Below, in pieces: positions 2,315-29,347 of a stretch of 32,366 bases of DNA. The stretch spans positions 1 through 32,366 of the forward strand of contig JAGCDF010000069.1 in the NCBI GenBank assembly GCA_017651225.1, read 5' to 3'. The DNA is from Bacteroidales bacterium. Its GTDB lineage: Bacteria; Bacteroidota; Bacteroidia; Bacteroidales; UBA932. The translations under genes and the position numbers were made by a program. Position 1 is the stretch's first letter. Each line of letters starts with the position of its first letter. The notes beneath the pieces were generated by a model, which saw only the letters and a list, made by a program, of their open reading frames with translations, was not told where the DNA came from and searched no databases.

Positions 2315-2415
2315 GCCGTTTTTCTGATTTCCGGGGCGTGAAACAGAATTGATGGGAATTGGTCCGCGAGTGATAGTTCCTCCGCGCCCGGGCCGGCGAA
2401 TCTCGTTTTTTTATG

Positions 2416-2423
2416 TATATTTG
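2416..2423 (+). promoter_or_regulatory. -7 element of the aminotransferase gene
   Basis: TATATTTG matches TAnnTTTG exactly and ends only 4 bases before the ATG at 2428. If it is used, the transcript starts at or next to the start codon (near-leaderless). Similar spacing recurs at other genes in this window. Confidence 0.6.
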
Positions 2424-2427
2424 CGAT

Positions 2428-3621
2428 ATGGAAATCTCGCAGCGAGCACAAAACATGCCTTCTTCCCCGATCCGGAAGCTGGCGCCGTACGCCGACGCGG
2501 CCAAGCGCAACGGCGTGCACGTCTATCACCTCAATATCGGTCAGCCGGACATCAAGACCCCGCAGTGCGGTCTTGACGCCCTCAAGGCCGTGGACCGCAG
2601 CATCCTGGAGTACAGCCCCTCCGACGGCTATCTCTCCCTGCGCACCAAGATGGTGCAGTACTACGCTGAGTACGGGATTTACCTTTCTCCGGAGGAGATC
2701 ATCGTCACGACCGGCGGCTCCGAGGCGGTGCTGTTCGCGTTCCTGGCGTGCCTGGGGCCCGGCGACGAAGTGATCGTCACAGACCCGTTCTACGCCAACT
2801 ACATGGCCTTCGCGATTTCCGTGGGTGCCGTGATCAAGAGCGTCAAGACGAACATCGAGGACGGCTTCCGCCTGCCCTCCGTGGAGGCGTTCGAGGAGCA
2901 GATCACTCCGCGCACCAAGGCCATCCTCATCTGCAACCCCAACAACCCGACGGGCTACCTCTACACCCGCAAGGAGATGCAGCGCCTGCGCGATATCGTC
3001 AAGAAGCACAATCTCTTCCTGTTCAGCGACGAGGTGTACCGCGAGTTCATCTACACGGGCATGCCGTATATCTCCGCCTTCCACATGGAGGGGATCGACC
3101 AGAACGTCGTGCTCTTCGACTCCGTGTCGAAGCGCTATTCCGAGTGCGGTATCCGCATCGGCTGCCTCTGCACGAAGAACAAAGCCGTGCGCGACGCGGT
3201 GATGAAGTTCTGCCAGGCGCGCCTGTCGCCGCCGCTGCTCGGCCAGATCGTGGCCGAGGCGTCGCTGGGCGTGCAGAAGGAGTATCTGCACGGCGTCTAT
3301 GAGGAGTACCTCGAGCGGCGCAACTTCCTGATCGACGGGCTGAACAAGATCCCCGGCGTGTATTCGCCCATCCCGATGGGCGCTTTCTACACGATGGCGA
3401 AGCTCCCGGTCGATGATGCGGAGAAGTTCTGCATCTGGTGTCTGCGCGACTTCCAGTACGAAGGCGCCACGGTCATGATGGCGCCCGGCGCCGGCTTCTA
3501 CACCGAGCCCGGCGAAGGCCGCCAGGAGGTCCGCATCGCCTACGTCCTCTGCAAAGAGGACCTCGCCAAGGCCCTCGTCGTCCTCCAGAAGGCCCTCGAG
3601 GCCTACCCCGGACGCCTCTAG
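2428..3621 (+). CDS. Pyridoxal-phosphate aminotransferase, class I/II (aspartate aminotransferase-like)
   Basis: 397-residue fold-type I aminotransferase that transfers amino groups between an amino acid and a 2-oxo acid in the cytosol. Visible motifs are the N-terminal NIGQPD segment, the NPNNPTG loop at residues 170-176, the DEVYREF segment with the PLP-ring Asp, and the Schiff-base Lys235 in SVSKRYSECGIRIG. A C-terminal RIAY segment carries the carboxylate-binding Arg. I chose ATG 2428 rather than ATG 2413 because homologues I recall begin a few residues before the SPIRKL motif and because 2413 lies upstream of the promoter box. Substrate specificity is uncertain. The gene stands alone, and a mobile element begins 3 bases after its TAG stop. 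Confidence 0.9.
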   Translation: MEISQRAQNMPSSPIRKLAPYADAAKRNGVHVYHLNIGQPDIKTPQCGLDALKAVDRSILEYSPSDGYLSLRTKMVQYYAEYGIYLSPEEIIVTTGGSEAVLFAFLACLGPGDEVIVTDPFYANYMAFAISVGAVIKSVKTNIEDGFRLPSVEAFEEQITPRTKAILICNPNNPTGYLYTRKEMQRLRDIVKKHNLFLFSDEVYREFIYTGMPYISAFHMEGIDQNVVLFDSVSKRYSECGIRIGCLCTKNKAVRDAVMKFCQARLSPPLLGQIVAEASLGVQKEYLHGVYEEYLERRNFLIDGLNKIPGVYSPIPMGAFYTMAKLPVDDAEKFCIWCLRDFQYEGATVMMAPGAGFYTEPGEGRQEVRIAYVLCKEDLAKALVVLQKALEAYPGRL

Positions 3622-3623
3622 CC

Positions 3624-3679
3624 GCCTCGCACGCTACGCCTACGCGCAGTCGATCCGACTCCAATCCTCATTTTGGCCT
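3624..3679 (+). repeat. Left terminal inverted repeat of the RAYT element
   Basis: Begins GCCTCGCAC and ends TTTTGGCCT. It matches the reverse complement of 5553-5608 at 48 of 56 positions. The shared blocks include GCCTCGCAC, ACGCCTACGC, CGATCCG and ATCCTCAT. The innermost part is a half REP palindrome. Confidence 0.8.
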
Positions 3680-3685
3680 TGTATA

Positions 3686-3811
3686 TCCTCAAAATGGGTC
3701 TATTTTGAGGACGGGGACCAGTTTTGGCCAGGTGTCCTCAAAATGGGGCTGTTTTGAGGACGGAAGCTGGTTTTTGGTGGGTTTGTCCTCAAATCGGGGT
3801 GTTTTTGAGGA
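3686..3811. repeat. 5' REP array: three TCCTCAAA(A) palindromes
   Basis: Three imperfect palindromes share arms TCCTCAAA(A) and TTTTGAGGA: 3686-3711, 3734-3761 (10-bp arms) and 3786-3811 (8-bp arms), each with an 8-10 base G-rich loop. The spacers between them are related GGGGACCAGTTTTGGCC-like sequences. The array matches the inverted 3' array at 5439-5567 but has one unit more in its middle. It lies within the untranslated region upstream of the element's first gene and could also affect transcription into it. Confidence 0.85.
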
Positions 3812-3910
3812 TTTGAAGGAAGTTTTTGGGGACAGTCTTTTACTTTTCAGGAAAAATCCGTAATCTTGTGTTAGGAGTGAGGCCTTTGTTTAACTTATAA
3901 AGGTTTCAAA

Positions 3911-4497
3911 ATGGAAACTATTGAAAAACCCGCCGCCTCCCCGTCCACGCGGGAGGCCCGCATCCGGGAAGTCCTGGATGAACACCGTTCCCTGGCGCAT
4001 GGCGCGCTGGATGATCTTATGTACGAGGCCTTCCTCGAGATTGGCCGTATCCTCAACACTCCGGAAGAAGCTGCCGGCGATAGCCAGGCCGGGAGCGCCC
4101 CTGTTCCCACCATGCCTGTCGGCGGGCTGTCGGCTTTTGCCTTGCGGCAGATCCAGCATCATGCCGCCGCCGGCGACCTGGCGGATTGGCTGGCCGGCGG
4201 CGCCGACAAGGACAAATGTCTTTACCTGCGCGACTTCCTGAATCTCGGCAAGCTGCAGGCCGAGGAGCTCCGTCTGCGCTACCCGAAAGCTTTCACGAAA
4301 TGGACTGACGACCAGGACCAGGCGCTGCTCGCGAACTACCGAGAAGCAACGGAAGGTGGCCGGAGCGTGAACTGGCGGCAATCTGTGACCCCTTCGGGCG
4401 CAACGTCAATGCCATCAAGCTCCGCCTGGAGCGGCTTGGAATCAACCTGGGCGCCGAGGCCGGACATTCCAGAAGGCCGGGAGGACCCGCCCGATGA
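3911..4497 (+). CDS. DNA-binding-type accessory protein of the RAYT element, frameshifted
   Basis: Starts at ATG 3911. About 145 residues read in the first frame, ending KWTDDQDQALLANYRE, the beginning of a Myb/HTH-like domain. The rest of that domain (NGRWPEREL, then FGRNVNAIKLRLERLGI) continues in the next frame from about 4348 to a TGA at 4495-4497. That TGA overlaps the transposase ATG as ATGA, the usual sign of translational coupling, so the second frame is the original 3' end. One base appears to be missing around 4340-4350. Uncorrected, the first frame runs on to 4714 through the transposase gene with an unlikely sequence. Reconstructed length is about 195 residues. The N-terminal part is a helical region I do not recognise. 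Whether the shift is a real mutation or a sequencing error cannot be told. Confidence 0.7.
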
Positions 4498-5462
4498 ATC
4501 CGGAGTCCGTGTGCGAGGCCGCCTTTGCCCGGGGCGGCCCGTACTGGCATCTCTATACGGATGGGGAGGGGATGCCAATCTTCTTTGCGGAGCCGGTCGA
4601 TTTCGTGTTTGGTATCACGTTGCTGGGGATAATCGCAGCGGAGTTCCCTCGCTGCAGAATCATCACTTTTACGTTGATGAGCAATCATATCCATATCATC
4701 CTGGCTGGCTCTGAAGCGGATATCCGCGCCTTTTTCTCCCTGTTTCGAGAGCGCCTGCAGAGATACCTGGGTCGGAAGAGGCGCTACTGGCCGGCCGAAC
4801 GCTTCGCGCCTTCCCTTTTTCGCATTCCTGACCTTCGTGCGCTTCGAAGCGAAATAGTGTATGTCAACCGTAACGGCTATGTGGTCTCTCCGGCGTGTAC
4901 ACCATTCTCTTATTGGTGGAGTGCCGGGGTGTTCCTGTTCAACCCGATGGCACGCATGCTCCCCACCTTAGCGTTTGCGGAACTGACACTCCGGGAGCGG
5001 CGGGAGATGTGCCATTGCCGCGACGCGACCCTTCCCGACCACTACCGTGTTCTTCCGGATTTACCCCTGACGGGAGACGAATATGCCGGTCCTGTCCTGG
5101 CGGCCCCTTCTTTCTGTGCTTTGGAGGAGGCAGAATCGTTCTTTCGGGACGCACATCAGTACTTCCGCCTGCTCAGCAAGGACCAGGAAGCGCAGGCGGA
5201 GGTGGCCCGGCGGCTGGGAGATAAGGTGTTCCTGACGGACGACGAGCTGTTCGGCGCCGTCTGTGCCCTGTGCGCAAAAGAGTATGATGTCTCCAATCCC
5301 GTCCTGGTTCCGGCCGACGGAAAACTGGACTTGGCCAGGAAGATGCACTTTGACTACAACGCTTCAAACAGACAGATTCAGCGGATGCTGCGCCTTTCGC
5401 CCGCTATCGTCGACGACCTCTTTCCGAATGCCAAGCCCATCCTCAAAAACACCCGCATTTGA
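4494..5462 (+). CDS. RAYT-like transposase (IS200-related Y1 HUH protein) with long C-terminal extension
   Basis: 322 residues. The HUH metal-binding motif is in MSNHIHIIL (His65, His67), and a candidate catalytic Tyr123 is in VYVNRNG, matching the YIHxNP-type motif of REP-associated tyrosine transposases. These enzymes nick and rejoin single-stranded REP hairpins. IS200-type Y1 domains take about 150 residues. Here about 190 residues follow, ending in an HTH-like segment (NASNRQIQRMLRLSPAIV, about 285-305) that could bind DNA. The ATG overlaps the upstream gene's reconstructed stop (ATGA). The last codons and the TGA stop lie inside a REP palindrome (5439-5466). REP arrays and inverted repeats flank the pair. 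I see no frame disruption, so it may be active. Confidence 0.82.
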   Translation: MNPESVCEAAFARGGPYWHLYTDGEGMPIFFAEPVDFVFGITLLGIIAAEFPRCRIITFTLMSNHIHIILAGSEADIRAFFSLFRERLQRYLGRKRRYWPAERFAPSLFRIPDLRALRSEIVYVNRNGYVVSPACTPFSYWWSAGVFLFNPMARMLPTLAFAELTLRERREMCHCRDATLPDHYRVLPDLPLTGDEYAGPVLAAPSFCALEEAESFFRDAHQYFRLLSKDQEAQAEVARRLGDKVFLTDDELFGAVCALCAKEYDVSNPVLVPADGKLDLARKMHFDYNASNRQIQRMLRLSPAIVDDLFPNAKPILKNTRI

Positions 5463-5567
5463 GGATAAACCCGTCCAAAACCGGTCCCTGTCCTCAAATT
5501 AGGCCTGTTTTGAGGATATGCTAGGCCTAAATCGATCTCTGTCCTCAAAACTAGGCCAATATGAGGA
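5439..5567. repeat. 3' REP array: three palindromes, the first overlapping the transposase stop
   Basis: Palindromes at 5439-5466 (ATCCTCAAA/TTTGAGGAT, 9-bp arms), 5491-5516 (TCCTCAAA/TTTTGAGGA) and 5542-5567 (TCCTCA/TGAGGA). Read as its reverse complement, this array runs in the same order as the 5' array, including the spacer between the first two palindromes. The two arrays are therefore extended inverted repeats of the element ends. Confidence 0.85.
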
Positions 5568-5608
5568 TCGGAGCCGGATCGCCCGTGCGTAGGCGTGGTG
5601 TGCGAGGC
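5553..5608 (-). repeat. Right terminal inverted repeat of the RAYT element
   Basis: Its reverse complement starts GCCTCGCAC and matches 3624-3679 with 8 mismatches in 56 bases. It overlaps the last palindrome of the 3' REP array. Confidence 0.8.
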
Positions 5609-5679
5609 TGCAATTTGGTTTTTCGAGCTACCGCACGAAAAATAAATTGCTGCTGAGCAGTTGGAAAGGGCGATCCGGC
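5573..5679. repeat. Nested inverted repeats beyond the right end of the element
   Basis: GCCGGATCGCCC (5573-5584) has a perfect inverted copy at 5668-5679. Between them is an imperfect hairpin, GCAATTTGGTTTTTCG (5610-5625) with CGAAAAATAAATTGC (5636-5650), followed by CTGCTGAGCAG (5650-5660). The inner hairpin lies just outside the terminal repeat and could be the terminator of one of the two convergent genes. No gene lies in 5609-5697. Confidence 0.5.
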
Positions 5680-5697
5680 GAATAGGGGCAGGAGGAA

Positions 5698-6324
5698 CTA
5701 GCGCTGAGACTCGGCGTCAAAGATCGCGTCGAACAGGGTGCGGAGGCGGGGTTCGTCGGAGATGAGGCGGCGGAGCTCGGCGAGGCGCGCGGCGTTGGGG
5801 GATTCGGGGATCCAGAGCTTGAGGTAGCCGCCCTCCGCGTACTTCTCGTGGAGGTGGTCCAGCGTGCGCTGCCAGTGCTCCTCGCGGCCGAGTTCCGGAT
5901 AGTGGGCGAAACCGAACTGCACGGTGCGCCGGACAATCGTCTCCGGCTCGATCTGCCGGTCGGCCTCGGCGATGATGCGCCCGTAGACCGAGCGGGGCTC
6001 GTGGTCGAGCGAGGCGCGGTGGTCCTCCGCGGCCTGCGCGATGGTCTCGATCTGCTCGGGAGAGAACCAACGGGGCAGGGCGGCGTCAGCGCGGATGATT
6101 CGCCCCGAGACCAGGTGGTGCGTGGCGCGGTCCTCGCAGAGGCCCGTGTCATGGAAGGCCGCGGCGGCGTAGATCATGCCGCGGTCGACGGGGTAATACG
6201 CCGCGAGCGCCAGGGCGTCGCGGATCACGCGCTCGACGTGCGGGCGCTGGTGCGCCTTGTCGAAGGCGTCGTAGCGGGGGAGAATCTCCGCCTCCACGTA
6301 AGCTTGCAGTTCAGCAGGAATCAT
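5698..6324 (-). CDS. HD-domain phosphohydrolase
   Basis: 208-residue cytosolic protein of the HD superfamily (metal-dependent phosphohydrolases). The metal-site pattern is visible: His in AHQRPHVERVIRDAL (about residues 25-40), the HD pair in AAAFHDTG (about 55-62), His in EDHRASLDHE, and a late Asp in IIAEADRQIE. The C-terminal third (YPELGREEHWQRTLDHLHEKY) is helical. HD proteins act on nucleotides or other phosphates; the substrate cannot be told here. A -7-like TATCTTCG (6340-6333, minus strand) ends 8 bases upstream of the ATG, so the gene probably has its own promoter despite following the DUF3868 gene by only 27 bases. Confidence 0.85.
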   Translation of the reverse strand: MIPAELQAYVEAEILPRYDAFDKAHQRPHVERVIRDALALAAYYPVDRGMIYAAAAFHDTGLCEDRATHHLVSGRIIRADAALPRWFSPEQIETIAQAAEDHRASLDHEPRSVYGRIIAEADRQIEPETIVRRTVQFGFAHYPELGREEHWQRTLDHLHEKYAEGGYLKLWIPESPNAARLAELRRLISDEPRLRTLFDAIFDAESQR

Positions 6325-25339: not shown

Positions 25340-25690
25340 TTGAAATAAAGGTGGGGCGATCTGCCGCCCGTAAGGGAGGAAAGTCCGGACAGGACAGGGC
25401 ATCCCGCTGCGGAAAGCGCAGGTAGGGGTAACCTTACGCCCGTCGTAACAGAAAACAACCGCCTACTCCGTCATCCCCGACCTGATCGGGGATCTCGGAA
25501 GGGTAAGGGTGAAAACGCGGGGCAAGAGCCCACGACGCACGGCAGCGATGTCGCGCGGGTACGACACCGGGACCTGCAAGACCAAATATACTGGCAGACG
25601 AGGACGGCCCGTCCGATGCCAGGGGGTAGGTTGCGAAGATAAATGGCAGAAAAAACGTGAACAGAAACCGGCTTACGGCTCCACCTTTTC
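25340..25690 (+). ncRNA. rnpB: RNase P RNA (type A)
   Basis: The conserved core is present: GGAGGAAAGTCCGGAC near the 5' end (25375-25390), the AACAGAAAACAACCGCC segment, GGGTGAAAACGCGGGGCAAG, and the 3' GATAAATGGCAG with AACAGAAACCGGCTTAC. The terminal P1 helix is AAGGTGG (25348-25354) with CCACCTT (25681-25687), followed by a U-rich stretch. The RNA processes tRNA 5' ends. A GTCAT-type palindrome sits inside it (25470-25495). The 3' end overlaps the stop codon of the convergent acyltransferase gene. The ends are estimates. Confidence 0.93.
25470..25495 (+). repeat. GTCAT-type palindrome inside the RNase P RNA
   Basis: GTCATCCCCGACC followed by TGATCGGGGATCT forms a stem of ATCCCCGA and TCGGGGAT. 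It lies between the conserved AACCGCC and GGGTAAGGGTGAAA segments, in a peripheral helix, where it would extend a stem without touching the core. Confidence 0.8.
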
Positions 25691-26752
25691 TATTTTCTTT
25701 TTCTTCTTCAGGAACGCATTGAAGCGGCGTTTGCGCTGCCGCTCGTTTTTGCTGAGCAGCTGGTCCTTCAGGTCCGACAGCTCCGCGCGGAGCGCGCTGC
25801 GGTTCAGCAGTTTCTCCGCCAGGTGCTTGAAGTAAGGCTCCTTGTGACGGTCGCGCTTGTCGGCATACATCTCGTCGAAGCCGATCAAGATGCCGATTTC
25901 GATGGAATCGAAGAACTCGTCGTTGATGCTGCCGCCGAACATCTTCATCTTCGGCGAAGCGTTCATATAGGAGTTGACGAGCGGCGGAATGCCCGTACCG
26001 AGGCGCCGGATGGCGTCCTTGAGGTTGCGGTAGTCCAGCTTATAGTCATCGTCCTTGAGGATGAGGTCCAGCAGGCGGCCGTTCGTCGTCACCTCGTAGG
26101 TCTGTTTCGGGCGGACCAGCTCGTCGGTATCCGCGAAATGCTTCCACAGGAAGTGCTGGATCAGGTCGAGCGCTCCCTTGTCGTAGTCCGGGTAGACGGT
26201 CATCTTCCCGAAATAGTACATCATGTCGGCGTGCTGAAGCATGATGGCGGCGAGGCCGTCCCAGAGGTTGTCCAGGGCGAAAATGGCCTTCGCGCCGGCC
26301 TTGGAGCTCTGGTATTCCGGCGCCACGAAGGAGCGGCCGAGCTCGATCGTGTGCGGGAGGTAGTCCTTGATGAACTCTTCCGAGAAATGGAACAGATGCG
26401 CGGAGGCCAGGATGGGCTGCCCCTCCGCGTCGAGGTTCACGTCCGAGCCCAGGATATAGCGGTAGCCGCCCAGGATGGCCGAAGCCTCGGGATCCCAGAT
26501 GACGATCTGCTTGTAGAGGCGGTCGTCCTTGAAATCGAAGTCGTCCAGATCCACGGCCGCGCCGGTGCCGCCGCCGCTGTCGCGGAAGGCGATCTCGCGC
26601 AGGCGCCCGATCTCCTGCAGGACATTGGGCGCGTTATGGCAATCGACCACGTAAATCTCGTTGTCGGATTTGTTGGTGTCGCACAGCTTTTTGTCGGGGG
26701 TGAGTTCCGCCTTCAGCAGGTCGACGCTCACCGGGGCAATGATATTTTCCAT
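25673..26752 (-). CDS. glsB: GNAT-fold N-acyltransferase, probable glycine-lipid synthase GlsB
   Basis: 359 residues. The N-terminal half is an OlsB/autoinducer-synthase-like GNAT domain: CHNAPNVLQEIGRLREIAFRDSGGGTG, then ILGGYRYILG, then IELGRSFVAPEYQ. In Bacteroides the paired genes glsB and glsA make glycine lipids: GlsB N-acylates glycine and GlsA adds the second acyl group. The gene follows the PlsC-like gene after 6 bases, which supports the assignment. The C-terminal tail is Lys/Arg-rich (LKKKKKIEKVEP) and is encoded opposite the U-rich 3' end of the RNase P RNA; the stop codon lies inside it. The family call is by motif and gene pairing. Confidence 0.82.
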   Translation of the reverse strand: MENIIAPVSVDLLKAELTPDKKLCDTNKSDNEIYVVDCHNAPNVLQEIGRLREIAFRDSGGGTGAAVDLDDFDFKDDRLYKQIVIWDPEASAILGGYRYILGSDVNLDAEGQPILASAHLFHFSEEFIKDYLPHTIELGRSFVAPEYQSSKAGAKAIFALDNLWDGLAAIMLQHADMMYYFGKMTVYPDYDKGALDLIQHFLWKHFADTDELVRPKQTYEVTTNGRLLDLILKDDDYKLDYRNLKDAIRRLGTGIPPLVNSYMNASPKMKMFGGSINDEFFDSIEIGILIGFDEMYADKRDRHKEPYFKHLAEKLLNRSALRAELSDLKDQLLSKNERQRKRRFNAFLKKKKKIEKVEP

Positions 26753-29262: not shown

Positions 29263-29347
29263 ATTCCGTCCTCAAAAACATGCTGTTTTGAGGACGGAAT
29301 GCCTTTTTTCTGTTGTTTGTCCTCAAAAACAGGGTGTTTTGAGGACA
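29263..29347. repeat. Solitary pair of TCCTCAAAA palindromes
   Basis: Two palindromes of the same family as the RAYT element arrays. Copy 1 is 29263-29300 with perfect 15-bp arms (ATTCCGTCCTCAAAA); copy 2 is 29318-29347 with 11-bp arms (TGTCCTCAAAA). Both have 8-base loops. They fill the gap between the convergent esterase and GH3 genes, with no transposase nearby, like REP doublets of other bacteria. Confidence 0.85.

Follow-up and report, generated by a model that had tools for sequence, protein, structure and literature searches.

Y1 HUH transposase genes that lie between inverted palindromes, such as the one described here from a 32,366-nucleotide contig of a Bacteroidales bacterium (JAGCDF010000069.1; the whole contig is referred to as the window), have been described as RAYT, or TnpA-REP, genes and the REPtrons that they form. 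Orthologous rayt genes were reported in 2010 to keep their genomic position and to diverge faster than their neighbours, with REPs that had changed yet were still palindromic (PMC2817692); a proposal of 2013 was that an 'orthoswitch' is followed by replacement of some of the REP variants, and that proliferation stops once the RAYT is lost (PMC3686654). For TnpA-REP, hairpin-dependent cleavage and strand transfer have been published (PMC8266576). The TIRYTs and TIRtrons of Di Nocera 2013, which belong mostly to subclass 2.1 of Quentin 2018, are Y1 genes inside terminal inverted repeats (TIRs), of which some are scattered in paired or clustered form, and the proteins of subclass 2.1 have a C-terminal helix-turn-helix (HTH) domain (PMC3733652, PMC6006769). 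TnpA-Y1 subclass 2.6 (RAYT group 5), from Bacteroidetes, is described with atypical secondary structures around the gene and copies of these elsewhere (PMC6006769), and REPINs are described as inverted pairs (PMC3116915).

In the window, a cassette of approximately 2 kb is situated between a host class I/II aminotransferase gene (AAT, 2413-3621, + strand) and a host HD-domain protein gene (HD, 5698-6324, − strand). It comprises, in order, a left palindrome array, a Myb-type gene (gene 1), a Y1-type transposase gene (TNP) and a mirrored right array. The evidence makes it probable that this is a RAYT/REPtron-like resident cassette, which disperses its own palindromes and is itself locked to its site. 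Genomes and their loci are labelled as follows: G000 (the window), G344 (L040), G345 (L041), G346 (L042), G261 (L106), G254 (L107), G442 (L293), G419 (L292) and G440 (L291). G457 and G424 apparently repeat L040 and L042 and were not counted as new. The G000 assembly is incomplete (1.87 Mb, 77 contigs, 78.7% complete), and counts in that genome are therefore lower bounds.

The locus extends the RAYT/REP pattern to a divergent Bacteroidales family and is in that respect of a kind already known. As in REPtrons, the Y1 HUH gene lies between inverted palindromes that have copies throughout the genome (G346 and G419 excepted), its position is fixed among orthologues, it diverges faster than its neighbours, and the repeats have changed and are still palindromic. 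It differs from RAYTs in the length of its protein (322 amino acids), its phased arrays, its second gene and its lack of a GT(A/G)G foot. The tyrosine motif is also different: YVNRNG is found in no class of Table 1 of Quentin et al. 2018 (PMC6006769). Within a set of 70 loci (the window, L040-L047, L106 and 60 further fetched loci), [ND]HxH was present at 68, and the motif that follows had the form Y...NG at 44, the class 2 form Y...NP at only 8, and neither form at 18. The TIRYTs resemble the present cassette in having Y1 genes inside inverted repeats and, as judged from an alignment of TNP, possibly also in the C-terminal HTH; they differ in that no GGGGWSAS was seen by eye in the 62-base arms found here (other TIRs lack it too), and in the palindromic units and the Bacteroidales host of the present locus. 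Subclass 2.6 shares the phylum and the structures around the gene, but its proteins have a median of 179 amino acids and the motif YIH[QN]NP (PMC6006769, Table 1). As in REPINs, the dispersed unit is mostly a palindrome pair, although here its palindromes are near-symmetric and are spaced at 51 nt, and the spacer between them is directional. No near-identical copies at different sites, as expected of an insertion sequence, were found. What is unusual here, therefore, is the combination of no GTAG foot, no Y...NP, phased arrays and a coupled Myb-type gene. Among the titles and beginnings of abstracts listed in searches of the open literature, which were not made individually by the name of each feature, no paper on phased arrays, a coupled Myb-type gene or in-place inversion was seen.

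TNP (4494-5462, + strand) carries the motifs NHIH and YVNRNG. NHxH and Tyr123 are invariant across seven aligned relatives, and the position of Tyr123 in that alignment marks it as the putative catalytic tyrosine. A profile built from seven relatives matched ISDra2 TnpA with an E value of 0.0023. The 29 best fold matches in the PDB were all IS200/IS605-type transposases, including TnpA-REP (4er8), with probabilities of 0.98-1.00; they align over approximately 110 of the 322 residues, with a best E value of 0.0031. The cut-off of NCBIfam NF047646 was missed (12.8 versus 80 bits). Taken together, these data suggest that TNP is a divergent, presumably catalytic, HUH/Y1 transposase with a single tyrosine. 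TNP is present in a single copy in G000, and a relative was found, at a cut-off of 1e-40, in 106 of 398 genomes of the family. Further Y1 matches exist in these genomes: three in G000, two others in G254 and one or more in G440.

The palindromes of the window are 26 nt long and approximately 51 nt apart. Those of the left array occupy 3686-3711, 3735-3760 and 3786-3811, and those of the right array 5440-5465 (overlapping the 3′ end of TNP), 5491-5516 and 5542-5567 (with one arm mismatch). Both arrays fold as hairpins better than 200 of 200 shuffles (z −8.2 and −6.7). In the set of 70 loci, 28 have similar palindromes at a distance of 49-53.5 nt from one another. The corresponding figure was 0 of 70 for far flanks taken from all of these loci (100,067 versus 110,150 bases), and five shuffled sets gave none. 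The pair spacings are concentrated at 50 nt (10 pairs), 51 nt (52) and 52 nt (21), with an echo at 102-104 nt and few elsewhere. The letters of the palindromes vary between loci; the palindromes themselves are too symmetric to be oriented, and the spacer is directional.

Long and often near-identical palindrome arrays adjoin the Y1 genes of L171, L152, L158, L163 and L047, with 12 units downstream of the gene in the examined stretch of L171. In L233 (G344 C7:59100-60300), positions 551-884 hold a mosaic array in which the classes TCCTCA, TGCGCA, TCCACA and TACACA share one phase of 51-52 nt.

The position of the cassette was compared among relatives. AAT (Pfam PF00155, E 6.1e-52) and HD (PF01966, E 4e-8) directly flank it in the window, L040, L041, L042 and L293. 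In L106 a cassette with a truncated TNP follows AAT, and three other ORFs (open reading frames) precede HD. L107 has AAT, a gene that we read from its sequence as RidA-like, and HD, with no cassette at the site. In L291 gene 1 adjoins AAT, and TNP is absent. L292 consists of the RidA-like gene, gene 1 and TNP, with neither AAT nor HD within the fetched 10 kb; its RidA neighbour, together with a left stretch that matches the HD-side neighbourhood of L042, suggests that it occupies the same site. The cassette is inverted relative to both flanks in L042 and L293, an arrangement that L292 and L291 would also fit, and the locus pair L155/L156 differs likewise. The forward cassettes (window, L040, L041 and L106) group together in the tree of TNP (support 82/87), and one flip can therefore explain the orientations at the site. 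It is apparent that the cassette can be inverted, truncated, absent or divergent at its site.

A similar constancy of position was seen more widely. In 20 of 22 locus pairs with at least 72% TNP identity a neighbouring ORF is shared, and in one more (L147/L151) flanking DNA is shared. The remaining pair, L133/L136 (72.7% TNP identity), has no shared flanks. For one of the 20, L183/L184, the shared ORF match is short (57 amino acids) and lies in an area with local duplications. The pairs listed below 72% showed mixed sharing of neighbours. Two further candidates for inversion were not retained: L144 versus L154, in which a neighbouring block of 3 kb is inverted instead of the transposase, and L138 versus L154, which rests on one flank.

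The cassette of the sister species G442 (L293) is strongly divergent, in clear contrast to its flanks. DNA identities for window-L040, window-L293 and L040-L293, respectively, are 94.5, 95.3 and 93.2% for AAT and 91.7, 90.2 and 89.9% for HD, as opposed to 83.4, 60.7 and 62.6% for TNP and 85.5, 57.0 and 58.2% for gene 1. Collinearity of the window with L293 stops at 3615 and resumes at 5710, with weak inverted matches only in between. The HD tree unites the window, L040 and L293 (100/99), and the AAT tree is weak. On the TNP tree, in which two other rows have long branches, L293 falls outside the six other cassettes that carry gene 1, among them those from more distant species (100/99), and an approximately unbiased (AU) test on TNP rejects a clade of window, L040 and L293 (p 0.0049). 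We read this as replacement by the cassette of another lineage. The main rival, very fast evolution in place, appears rather unlikely, but several observations agree with it: faster evolution of RAYTs than of neighbouring genes has been reported (PMC2817692), the three-member clade is not rejected by gene 1 alone (p 0.285), and a donor search with the G442 transposase in the 398 genomes gave 51% as the best identity among the matches listed. Placement of L293 outside cassettes of more distant species, with the AU result, argues against it. A search beside the G442 cassette for a donor tract of homologous recombination gave no clear signal; over the final 100 columns of AAT, L293 and the window are 91% identical (98% there for window/L040), and elsewhere their identity goes down to 89%.

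Since related species thus hold, at one site, different cassettes with different palindrome classes, they constitute a natural experiment in which the creation and upkeep of genomic palindromes by Y1 genes can be assessed; this link is usually drawn from association. In exact searches, the CCTCAAA type was found 17 times in G000 (5 in the element) and 41 times in G344, was absent from G345, and occurred once each in G346, G261 and G254 (inside the cassette in the first two). Nine of the 10 dispersed G000 sites read, with two mismatches allowed, are pairs exactly 51 nt apart. The CCACAAA type was found 16 times in G345 (5 in the element) and not in five other genomes, and the TTACNGAAT type 9 times in G442 (2 at the cassette) and not in eight other genomes. 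A wider pattern gave, among the matches listed, 21 in G000, 42 in G344, 19 in G345, 5 in G419, 2 in G442 and 1 each in G440, G261, G254 and G346. Reversed control patterns gave no matches throughout. Six genomes have a full-length TNP at the site, and four of them (G000, G344, G345 and G442) accordingly contain dispersed palindromes cognate to the resident cassette; in G261, G440 and G254, where no full-length cassette is present at the site, the searched classes are almost absent. Matched TNP/palindrome pairs in which one base is switched symmetrically (TCCTCA versus TCCACA) allow a direct test of specificity.

Three of the 19 palindromes in G345 (C81:6156, C93:3770 and C93:3821) combine one TCCTCA arm with one TCCACA arm, and are possible intermediates of a class switch. 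Some palindrome sites are common to G000 and G344, for example the pair at 29269-29345 of the window, which has 51-nt spacing and whose two palindromes are also paired in G344. In a search for empty sites, the flanks of G344 loci were sought in G000, with 13 matches, of which the 7 long ones were aligned. At L227/L249 both sides align and the array is absent from G000, with blurred edges. Alignment is confined to the left side at L225 (the clearest of these), L232, L221 and L230; at L226/L250 arrays are present in each of the two genomes, and L224/L254 did not align.

It could be argued that another enzyme, or recombination, is responsible for spreading the palindromes, and that the Y1 gene only carries them as a passenger. 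The other Y1 matches in G000 and G254, the several palindrome classes within mosaic arrays, and the two genomes (G346 and G419) with a full-length TNP and no dispersed cognate palindromes by the patterns used are all compatible with such a scenario. We nevertheless regard it as improbable, for the abundant class tracks the cassette and not the species tree: CCTCAAA is abundant in G000 and G344 of six genomes, CCACAAA in G345 of six, and TTACNGAAT in G442 of nine, so that G442 has a class of its own despite flanks close to those of G000 and G344.

Several results weigh against a resident cassette that disperses its own palindromes. By exact patterns, G346 has one palindrome, inside the cassette, and among the 5 wide-pattern matches of G419 only the one at the cassette is of that genome's own TCCATGAA type. 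None of the seven G344/G000 alignments contained a readable clean empty site giving the exact ends of the dispersed unit. The strict array test was failed by 42 of the 70 loci, and a GTAG/GTGG foot was found at 0 of 154 positions (both sides of 77 TCCTCA-type palindromes). As for the protein, the AlphaFold model of TNP is modest (predicted local distance difference test score, pLDDT, 66; predicted template modelling score, pTM, 0.58), none of the fold matches reaches an E value of 0.001, and Pfam Y1_Tnp (PF01797) stayed far below its cut-off, with a best score among the scanned proteins of 14.7 versus 23 bits (L041) and no match in the Pfam result for the window protein.

The following mechanism is proposed for a dispersing resident cassette. 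By analogy with TnpA-REP, the Y1 HUH protein would probably cut and join single-stranded DNA at the palindrome hairpins, and would probably disperse palindrome pairs to other sites in trans. TNP, its coupled Myb-type partner and the mirrored arrays stay at one site across species divergence; there the cassette can be inverted, shortened or missing altogether, or a divergent type can be present. The mirrored arrays may themselves permit inversion of the cassette, either by recombination or by the enzyme.

Gene 1 was predicted originally as an HTH/Myb-type gene coupled to the transposase by an ATGA overlap. The gene itself was borne out as a real component of the same cassette, being present in four of four close relatives at the site (L040, L041, L042 and L106) and also in L292 and L293. 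In those four relatives it is intact and overlaps TNP by 4 nt (with start codons assigned by prediction). The coupling did not hold for the window copy (3911-4497, + strand), in which the frame is broken. The ORF that starts at 3911 runs to 4714, the Myb-type C-terminus and its stop codon (4495-4497) are in another frame, and the ATGA overlap (4494-4497) is out of frame with the start. Relative to the intact L040 gene, a net frame change is located near 4379-4387. Substitutions between the window and L040 number 14, 14 and 58 at the three codon positions; they are still mainly at the third, and the frame break therefore either arose recently or stems from an error in the assembly.

Two of three intact relatives pass the cut-offs of Pfam Myb models (L042, 27.0 versus 24.4 bits; L041, 25.3 versus 22.9), L040 is below the cut-off, and a Pfam scan of gene 1 from L291 gave no match. 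The fold model of gene 1 was poor (pLDDT 54.9) and gave no significant fold match, and a PHROGs search returned weak matches to phrog_18209 (unknown) and phrog_323 (D5-like regulator). An earlier search with the N-terminal part had matched solely the window's own genome among 199. In the alignment search of the 398 family genomes, gene 1 was matched in 45 at 0.01 and in 14 below 1e-10, as against 106 for TNP, which indicates that most TNP-bearing genomes are without gene 1. Seven of the 14 strong matches are at the cassette site or adjoin its genes; the other seven (L294-L300) have no TNP within the fetched 4.8-10 kb. In L303 (3298-4789), a more distant Y1 gene has a different Myb/GcrA-type gene upstream, with 127 nt between the ORFs, an arrangement that hints that the pairing of Myb-type and Y1 genes may recur.

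As to function, one might guess that the Myb-type protein is a DNA-binding partner or a regulator. A wider scheme would have this protein help to choose or organize the palindromes, with the 51-nt phasing (approximately five helical turns) derived from assembly on a double-stranded array, and the cassette as an allelic type that is inverted and exchanged among species, each exchange resetting the palindrome population of the genome; we offer it as a speculation and regard it as unlikely.

The original prediction placed the boundaries of the unit at a pair of 56-bp inverted repeats. The repeats themselves were confirmed: the arms at 3624-3679 and 5553-5608 are complementary at 48 of 56 positions, whereas in 40 shuffles of both 250-base flanks the best 56-base match had a mean of 27.2 and never exceeded 30. 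The symmetry extends beyond 56 bp, being 84% for 3621-3682/5550-5611, 83% for 3670-3733/5469-5532 and 79% for 3735-3812/5439-5516. The right arm continues into a hairpin of 107 nt (5573-5679, + strand), and the stretch 5570-5682 folds better than 200 of 200 shuffles (z −5.48). This hairpin repeat has copies, without the two genes, at four other places in G000 (C47, C22, C28 and C75), and the copy in C75 has a dispersed palindrome pair approximately 760 nt away. The left arm corresponds to part of this hairpin repeat (approximately 3621-3660, − strand). The outer part of the 56-bp arms is thus half of a separate dispersed hairpin, and the repeats are therefore not the termini of the transposase element.

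When six copies of the hairpin were aligned, one of them (from L041) incomplete, 15 of the 39 pairs predicted for the stem had at least one two-sided change. The covariation term has a small value (−0.88), and pairing at several positions is disrupted in one or two of the six rows. An Rfam search of the window copy matched no known RNA family. Besides the window copy, the repeat was noted in L064, L065, L066 and L067 and at 3115-3210 of L041.

A mobile insertion element bounded by the 56-bp repeats, with both genes moving together, as had been suggested, is very unlikely and for the relatives seen was rejected as largely refuted: the long inverted repeats, the two genes in one unit and the pair L133/L136, whose unshared flanks mean that relocation or duplication may happen over long times, speak for it, but there is a single copy in G000, the close relatives have the same AAT/HD neighbours (L106 lying beside AAT), 21 of 22 pairs share their locus, and the outer arm belongs to a separate repeat that occurs without the genes. 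The RAYT-type identity of the gene, predicted together with this mobility, was upheld, and copies of the palindromes do occur elsewhere in the genome.

Elsewhere in the window, an RNase P RNA of bacterial class A is situated at 25348-25691.

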